A stretch of 33,193 nucleotides of DNA from Prochlorococcus sp. AG-409-J16 (GTDB lineage: Bacteria > Cyanobacteriota > Cyanobacteriia > PCC-6307 > Cyanobiaceae): assembly GCA_003215655.1 (NCBI GenBank), contig QCKB01000009.1, forward strand, positions 1 to 33,193. The letters are read 5' to 3'. The position numbers and the translations under genes were made by a program. The notes under the pieces were generated by a model, which had not been told where the DNA came from, did no database searches, and saw nothing but the letters and a program-made list of their open reading frames with translations. Shown one piece after another: positions 28,571 through 30,280 of this stretch (within the stretch, counting starts at the first letter, position 1; each line of letters starts with the position of its first letter).

Positions 28571-29734
28571 GTGAACATTCAGCTCGGTCGCTCCAAGATC
28601 GTAAGAAGGGCCTATGGAATCGACGAAATAGCCCTTGCTCCTGGTGGGCGAACAGTAGATCCTGAAATTGCCAATACCAGTTGGCAACTAGGGGGAATCA
28701 ATAGGGAGATCCCAATAATCGCCAGTGCAATGGATGGTGTTGTTGATGTAGGGATGGCTGTTTCATTAAGCAAGCTTGGTGCTCTTGGAGTCCTAAATCT
28801 GGAGGGGATACAAACCAGGTATGAAGACACAAATCCAATACTTGATCAGATCACAAATGTCGGGAATGAATCTTTCGTCCCGTTAATGCAAAAGGTCTAT
28901 AGCCAACCAATCAAACAAAAATTGATTGAACAAAGAATCAAAGAAATAAAAGACCAAGGAGGAATTGCAGCCGTAAGCGGAACACCTATTGCTGCAATTA
29001 GGTATGCCGAAACTATTGCTAAAGCAGGTGCCGATTTGTTTTTCGTCCAAGCAACGGTTGTTTCGACAGAGCATATTGGACCTGAAGGGCGTGAGAGTCT
29101 TGATCTTGAAGGCTTATGTAAAGACATAGGCATCCCAGTAGTAATAGGAAATTGTGTTACTTATGAGGTAGCCCTTCAATTAATGCGAGCTGGTGCAGCC
29201 GGTGTGATGGTTGGGATTGGTCCTGGCGCAGCATGCACCTCAAGAGGAGTACTTGGTGTTGGGGTCCCACAAGCCTCTGCAATAGCCGATTGTTCCGCTG
29301 CCCGGACTGACTATCAAGAAGAAAGCGGTCGATACGTACCAGTAATTGCAGATGGAGGTATCGTCACAGGTGGAGACATCTGCAAATGTATCGCCTGCGG
29401 AGCTGATGCAGTAATGATCGGGTCACCAATAGCCCGTGCCCAAGAAGCTCCAGGAAGAGGCTTTCATTGGGGAATGGCAACACCAAGTCCCATACTTCCT
29501 AGAGGAACCAGAATCAAAGTTGGAAGTACTGGTTCACTTGAATGCATACTTAAAGGCCCTGCTCGCCTAGATGATGGAACCCATAATCTTCTTGGAGCAT
29601 TAAAAACCTCGATGGGAACCCTAGGTGCTAGAACAATCAAGGAAATGCAGCAAGTAGAAGTTGTAGTTGCACCTTCTCTACTGACTGAAGGCAAGGTTTA
29701 CCAAAAAGCTCAACAACTGGGTATGGGGAAATAA
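28571..29734 (+). CDS. guaB3: GuaB3-type IMP dehydrogenase-related protein
   Basis: The 387-residue protein is an IMP dehydrogenase-type barrel that lacks the inserted CBS domains of standard GuaB; this is the GuaB3 (IMP_DH_rel_2) subfamily found in cyanobacteria and actinobacteria. It should oxidise IMP to XMP with NAD+ in guanine nucleotide synthesis. The catalytic loop GPGAACTSRG has Cys222; the phosphate-binding strand PVIADGGIVTGGD and the MIGSPIA motif are intact. It starts with GTG 28571, placing the conserved IVRRAYGIDEIAL segment near the N-terminus. The gene lies 78 bases after the CAAD gene and directly before Yfr1 and trxA, a classic picocyanobacterial order. Confidence 0.93.
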   Translation: MNIQLGRSKIVRRAYGIDEIALAPGGRTVDPEIANTSWQLGGINREIPIIASAMDGVVDVGMAVSLSKLGALGVLNLEGIQTRYEDTNPILDQITNVGNESFVPLMQKVYSQPIKQKLIEQRIKEIKDQGGIAAVSGTPIAAIRYAETIAKAGADLFFVQATVVSTEHIGPEGRESLDLEGLCKDIGIPVVIGNCVTYEVALQLMRAGAAGVMVGIGPGAACTSRGVLGVGVPQASAIADCSAARTDYQEESGRYVPVIADGGIVTGGDICKCIACGADAVMIGSPIARAQEAPGRGFHWGMATPSPILPRGTRIKVGSTGSLECILKGPARLDDGTHNLLGALKTSMGTLGARTIKEMQQVEVVVAPSLLTEGKVYQKAQQLGMGK

Positions 29735-29781
29735 AGGGAAATTCCATATAGAGACTCACCAGGCTTAAATCTGACAAGCGT

Positions 29782-29787
29782 TAAGAT
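29782..29787 (+). promoter_or_regulatory. Putative -10 box of Yfr1
   Basis: TAAGAT is placed about 8-10 bases before the likely 5' end of the Yfr1 RNA. No clear -35 element is seen. The assignment rests on spacing only. Confidence 0.4.
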
Positions 29788-29793
29788 TATTTT

Positions 29794-29852
29794 GTGAGGG
29801 CTTAGGCCCGCACACTCCTCACACCAGACCGCCCGACGAGCTCGGGCTTTTT
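29794..29852 (+). ncRNA. yfr1: Yfr1 small RNA with its intrinsic terminator
   Basis: Yfr1 is an abundant picocyanobacterial regulatory RNA of about 55-65 bases that pairs with outer-membrane protein mRNAs. The hallmarks are all present: a 5' hairpin (GGGC 29798-29801 / GCCC 29806-29809), the single-stranded motif ACTCCTCACAC at 29814-29824, and a terminator hairpin (GCCCGA 29831-29836 / TCGGGC 29842-29847) followed by five T's. Its place between a guaB-type gene and trxA is the known locus. The 5' end is an estimate within a few bases. Confidence 0.95.
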
Positions 29853-29956
29853 GTATTTGTCTACACAAGAGCGTCACAGTTCCTACAGCTAATTTGCGCA
29901 AAGGCTGAAATTTGTAAAACTGGTTGCTAAGTTTCTTCGAAATAAAACCAACTGAA

Positions 29957-30280
29957 ATGTCTAGCGCTGATGCCGTTACAGATGGATCATTCGAGCAGGA
30001 TGTCTTACAGAGCAATGTCCCCGTACTAGTGGACTTCTGGGCTCCTTGGTGTGGTCCTTGCAGAATGGTTTCCCCAATTGTCGATGAAATCGCCAAAGAA
30101 TTCGAGGGGAAAATCAAGGTTTTCAAGCTAAATACTGACGAAAACCCAAATGTTGCAAGTCAATATGGGATTCGAAGCATCCCTACTTTGATGATTTTCA
30201 AAGGTGGGCAAAAAGTTGACACCGTGGTTGGAGCAGTTCCAAAGGCAACTCTCTCTGGCACTATCTCCAAATACCTATAG
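29957..30280 (+). CDS. trxA: Thioredoxin
   Basis: A 107-residue classical thioredoxin that reduces target disulfides, in phototrophs linking photosynthetic electron flow to enzyme activity. The active site WCGPC is at 31-35 in [13 protein letters not shown]; the cis-proline loop SIPTLMIF and the buried DFW Asp are intact. ATG 29957 gives the normal family length; a TTG at 29924 would add 11 atypical residues. It is preceded by the Yfr1 terminator, so it needs its own promoter within about 100 bases. It is one candidate for the redox partner of OpcA/G6PDH in this genome, by inference. Confidence 0.98.

Follow-up and report, generated by a model that had tools for sequence, protein, structure and literature searches.

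An intact, ordinary copy of the small RNA gene yfr1 between guaB3 and trxA of Prochlorococcus sp. AG-409-J16, with related motifs in Yfr10-like RNAs and porin 3′ regions

Yfr1 is an abundant transcript of 54-69 nt. The RNA known from Prochlorococcus and marine Synechococcus contains the 11-mer ACTCCTCACAC and two hairpins, is preceded by a -10 element, ends in a terminator and lies between guaB and trxA in the orientation found here. The upstream gene is called plain guaB in the literature (PMC2190773, PMC1242208), the order guaB, yfr1, trxA being found in most, not all, genomes (PMC2190773, Table 2), and in three strains the start of yfr1 was mapped and a -10 element deduced (PMC1242208). In Escherichia coli, Yfr1 of strain MED4 represses a fusion of the porin gene PMM1121 4.7-fold, and Yfr2 relieves this repression (PMC6778093). 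In Nostoc, direct interaction of Yfr1 with 11 mRNAs has been described, many of which come from envelope genes; among the targets tested in Nostoc PCC 7120 are the porin genes alr0834 and alr4550 along with murC and mraY (PMC6974561). PMC6778093 itself questions whether ribosome-binding-site blocking in cyanobacteria is as well established as assumed, because such sites are no commoner than chance in MED4 and MIT9313. The same 11-mer occurs in Yfr10 of MED4 and in Yfr18 and Yfr104; Yfr10 presents it in a loop atop a stem and lacks conserved synteny (PMC6778093, PMC2518516).

The DNA analysed here (the window, 33,193 nt of contig QCKB01000009.1) contains an intact and ordinary copy of this already known RNA at its usual locus, within the 222-base spacer between guaB3 and trxA, all three genes being on the forward strand:

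28571-29734, forward strand: guaB3, upstream gene for an IMP dehydrogenase-related protein without CBS domain (TIGR01304, E 8.6e-157)
29782-29787, forward strand: putative -10 element TAAGAT, separated by six bases from the first base of the RNA (conserved columns)
29794-29852, forward strand: gene of the small RNA Yfr1, about 57-59 nt in length (RF01116 match and T-run)
29794-29813, forward strand: 5′ hairpin, one A/G mismatch flanked by 3 and 4 base pairs (minimum free energy fold, covariation)
29814-29824, forward strand: conserved 11-mer ACTCCTCACAC, the seed (exact match, unpaired in the fold)
29831-29847, forward strand: 3′ hairpin of the intrinsic terminator (fold, terminator scan, covariation)
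29848-29852, forward strand: terminator T-run, five T (sequence, terminator scan)
29957-30280, forward strand: trxA, downstream gene for thioredoxin, ATG at 29957 (TIGR01068, E 1.2e-40, obtained for the ORF read from the TTG at 29924)

The first-pass annotation had proposed a Yfr1 RNA with the full 11-base motif, both flanking hairpins and the T-run, and had named an Rfam covariance search as a check. This search bore the proposal out: the RF01116 match (29794-29850, forward strand) reached 65.4 bits (E 5.5e-11; gathering score 38 bits) and covered model positions 1-59 of 59. It was the only match in the window and in the whole genome, and among 14 control genomes Synechococcus elongatus alone was matched. 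A single exact motif is present in the window, and 100 shuffles yielded none. Counted up to where the Rfam match stops, the RNA measures 57 nt, like Yfr1 of MIT 9313 (57 nt; PMC1242208), and no difference of substance from the Yfr1 of Prochlorococcus and Synechococcus was found, the linker being two bases shorter than in the Rfam consensus. The stem sequences of Yfr1 from the filamentous relatives compared differ from those of the window RNA. Since Yfr1 has no ORF, an ORF-based gene list would miss it. The opposite strand carries a 138-aa ORF starting at TTG (29710-30126) that overlaps both Yfr1 and trxA.

The minimum free energy fold (-25 kcal/mol, z -2.97, matched in stability by 1 of 200 shuffles) consists of the 5′ and 3′ hairpins joined by an open linker that contains the motif, so that the perfect ACUCCUCACAC sits in the unpaired centre of the molecule; four flanking bases also pair across the terminator. 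The 3′ hairpin was recovered as a terminator-like site in the terminator scan, a result weak alone (one site found versus a shuffle mean of 0.5). The two flanking hairpins typical of Yfr1, the 3′ one acting as terminator, were further supported by covariation in an alignment of 63 sequences, 52 of them distinct. It comprises the window copy and 62 loci of picocyanobacteria; 14 further loci with the motif, from filamentous or distant organisms, were excluded beforehand, and MAFFT placed a few rows wrongly (e.g. L108). Over both hairpins 96.0% of 676 cells were paired and 7 of 13 pairs showed two-sided changes, neither value being reached in 500 shuffles. The 5′ hairpin (7 pairs) had 93.7% of its cells paired and four pairs changed on both sides (alignment A1), and the 3′ hairpin (6 pairs) had 98.7% paired. 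Controls with partners slid by 1-3 columns were paired in 19-53% of cells; the covariation score of the -1 control (0.137) was near that of the true pairing (0.157).

The putative -10 element belongs to columns of the form TAnnnT that stand out in the spacer (T in 53, A in 50 and T in 51 of 63 motif-anchored sequences). A generic scan for sigma-70 consensus promoters found none.

Profile matches to both neighbours confirmed that the RNA lies between guaB3 and trxA, and the recognition of the upstream gene as the CBS-less GuaB3 form was likewise correct (TIGR01304, 522 bits versus a cut-off of 342; best Pfam match IMPDH, with CBS absent among the Pfam matches). The implication that such a neighbour is peculiar did not stand. 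GuaB3 upstream and trxA downstream were present in 31 of 31 loci found via Yfr1 (that of the window plus the 30 top scorers in a search of 400 genomes). Starting from the protein, the exact motif was found downstream on the same strand in 76 of 80 GuaB3 loci (the best 80 of 581, from named other genomes including Nostoc, Anabaena and Leptolyngbya), 40-757 bases past guaB3 with a median of 85. A thioredoxin signature followed within 1500 bases in 73 of the 80, three of the others ending too early and four being without it. Because both sets show the same arrangement, GuaB3 is the normal neighbour and was discarded as a distinguishing mark; the order of genes in the window is that published as guaB, yfr1, trxA. 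Among the loci compared, a contig labelled Bifidobacterium breve (CALPNT020000018.1) carries a picocyanobacterial guaB3-Yfr1 locus, so that this public bin seems mislabelled or contaminated.

The identification as Yfr1 thus holds on account of sequence, structure, covariation and location. A copy preserved in sequence by chance, with promoter or function lost, is a very improbable reading of the locus. Such a relic might show itself in the two-base linker deletion relative to the Rfam consensus, and some genomes of the family indeed show no Yfr1; against this, the linker varies in length among relatives anyway (alignment A1), the seed is exact, both hairpins are intact and the -10-like columns are kept. 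Moreover, lost copies seem to decay, since no Yfr1 was detected at E up to 0.5 in the motif-less GuaB3 loci L070, L076 and L081, nor in L106. The first three are Prochlorococcus loci which group in the GuaB3 tree (100/92), the GuaB3 of the window lying outside. In this tree that grouping alone is supported, and the tree was rejected for dating the loss because its deep Prochlorococcus branches lack resolution. Loss in some low-light Prochlorococcus is already published (PMC2190773, PMC6778093).

In the family as a whole a Yfr1 match was obtained in 336 of 400 genomes (335 over the cut-off) and in 234 of the 251 that are at least 90% complete; the 64 and 17 genomes, respectively, in which none was found are upper bounds on absence, as the search used stricter filters and included incomplete genomes. 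The own genome is the sole member of its genus in the set compared. Three genomes of genus g9 (G008, G062 and G090; 95-99% complete, 2.1-2.5 Mb) had no Yfr1 match under the stricter filters and contain the exact motif, and it is possible that they represent a further loss of Yfr1 outside the small-genome Prochlorococcus.

The own genome carries two more exact copies of the motif, 7.6 kb apart and Yfr10-like in look:

C10:31838 (= L113 1486-1556): Yfr10-like RNA with the exact Yfr1 motif, stem-loop and terminator
C10:39462 (= L114 1486-1556): Yfr10-like RNA with the exact Yfr1 motif, stem-loop and terminator

That the window RNA itself is of the Yfr10 type and merely shares the 11-mer is hardly credible and was refuted by structure and place, since RF01116 matches neither of these two copies at E up to 0.1 and Yfr10 presents its motif in a loop atop a stem (PMC6778093), whereas the window RNA has it between two hairpins, matches RF01116 over the full length and lies at the guaB3-trxA locus. 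In short folds of the two Yfr10-like RNAs, the loop of a short stem holds the motif except for its first base, which pairs, and a second hairpin and a T-run follow. With longer upstream sequence GGAGT can pair with the motif, so that display in the loop depends on the position of the 5′ end. By eye, similar RNAs with varied stems were seen in relatives (L148, L151, L155, L162, L171 and others), some of which have no Yfr1 match (genomes G007, G016 and G065, at L162, L158 and L157). At least one exact motif is present in all 251 near-complete genomes, which fits the published Yfr10 of SS120, though chance copies occur too. Raw counts of the 11-mer were set aside as weak evidence (reversed control up to 4 per strand; own genome 3 versus 1).

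As to the function of the Yfr1 copy in the window, transcription of the RNA would start at a promoter of its own within the guaB3-trxA spacer and end at its own terminator; the two stable hairpins would keep the seed ACUCCUCACAC single-stranded, and the seed would pair with ribosome-binding sites of the GUGUGAGGA type, chiefly those of porin and other envelope mRNAs, and block the initiation of translation. We regard this reading, Yfr1 with promoter and terminator of its own whose seed would block target translation, as almost certain. Pairing of the exposed UCCUCACAC with target ribosome-binding sites, known from Prochlorococcus MED4 and Nostoc, is likely here by analogy, and transcription, high abundance and repression through pairing would likewise follow the work on relatives. 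Besides the gene, its structure, its location and its conservation, a perfect 9-base complement was observed at the start of the own porin gene:

C11:5076-6485 of the own genome (= L175 1498-2910), minus strand: OprB-like porin (OprB, 24.7 bits; cut-off 22.9)

Two other genera have genomes that encode this porin with 98-99% identity. The leader of the own porin gene is GTGTGAGGA-ACAA-ATG, in which GTGTGAGGA is the perfect 9-base complement of UCCUCACAC; the seed therefore has its counterpart at the porin start in terms of sequence complementarity. In co-folding both Yfr1 hairpins were kept, UCCUCACAC paired with the porin leader over 9 pairs, and five further pairs joined the Yfr1 tail to the leader. 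The duplex between the seed region and the leader had -17.3 kcal/mol, a value as low in 5 of 500 base shuffles.

The full 9-mer was found no more than 25 bases from the start in 16 of 21 family porin loci, taken as those with a match starting at residue 1; two others had 8 bases and three had 7, 5 and 4. Nine complementary bases occurred in 1 of 106 other genes, a control set biased upward because part of it came from loci picked for TGAGGAGT. When the set was enlarged to 90 loci, 60 of them hand-picked from a longer list, at least 9 contiguous complementary bases were found at 55 of the 63 porin starts recognised; truncated genes, duplicate sequences and starts that lack the usual N-terminal pattern had dropped out. 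Two other porin-like matches in the own genome, one reaching the contig end and the other a piece of 57 aa, have uninformative leaders.

Genome-wide pattern counts were discarded as a basis for the porin-target claim. TGTGAGGA ahead of ATG occurred four times versus twice in the reversed control, just two of the four sites preceding a gene start, and TGAGGAGT gave 68 versus 68; complementarity alone therefore does not define a target set. The other gene start after TGTGAGGA is that of a 204-aa ORF (L177 1503; C1:545888-545902, minus strand), which from this complementarity is a possible further target of Yfr1. Yfr2, the published antagonist, was not located: RF01702 matched nowhere, controls included, which makes that search uninformative, and a scan of L145 and the window with the published Yfr2 motif gave matches at chance level only.

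The Yfr1 word was also met at the other end of porin genes. TCCTCACAC was found 20-50 bases past the string AAGTTCTGA, which served as the porin-type end in the search, at 45 places (two sharing one stop) in 42 of 400 family genomes and 11 of 59 genera, against one place in the reversed control; the lineages being related, these counts are not independent. All of the 20 places opened follow an ORF or ORF end matching the own porin (pairwise blastp, E 1e-123 to 1.1e-7), and in the 8 of these with the start in view the 9-mer was present at the porin start in every case. In the set of 63 porins the word occurred past the stop in 6 and ahead of the leader in 1, each time within 260 bases. Past the stop, 755 permuted 9-mers gave an average of 0.098 and a maximum of 4. 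The own genome lacks the pattern of AAGTTCTGA followed after 20-50 bases by TCCTCACAC.

A predicted hairpin with TCCTCACAC in its loop lies in the porin 3′ region of marine Synechococcus-type loci, and the word was met in these family porin loci:

L205 2934-3030, L206, L207, L208, L213, L272, L273, L277-L283 and L287: porin 3′ regions with TCCTCACAC, mostly 20-50 bases past the stop

In the folds of 22 distinct regions, 16 place 7 or more of the word's 9 bases in an apical loop and the other 6 do not, compared with 25 of 315 random spots, and by eye the stems change in a compensatory manner (e.g. U-A to C-G in the third pair). The word in the 3′UTR, UCCUCACAC, is complementary to GUGUGAGGA at porin starts and has the same sense as Yfr1, hence it would mimic Yfr1 and not titrate it. 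It is tempting to speculate that UCCUCACAC is an anti-ribosome-binding-site word shared by Yfr1, the Yfr10-like RNAs and some porin 3′UTRs, and that porin mRNAs or their 3′ fragments might mimic Yfr1, curbing porin synthesis the more, the more porin mRNA is transcribed, or might soak up Yfr2; this proposal, drawn from sequence comparison, is a tentative one that we hold to be somewhat short of an even chance. One of these porin 3′ hairpins may be the Yfr10 of WH8102. No description of the porin 3′UTR word was found in the accessible parts of the literature on Yfr10 and Yfr104, on Yfr1 and porins and on UTR-derived small RNAs of cyanobacteria.

The Yfr1 copy of the window adds one more orthologue and serves mainly as an anchor. 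That the complement is conserved in the porins examined from the family is in keeping with an old, shared role of Yfr1 in porin control. If the proposal concerning the 3′UTR word is true, porin genes would control themselves through a mimic of Yfr1, which could be tested directly in marine Synechococcus.
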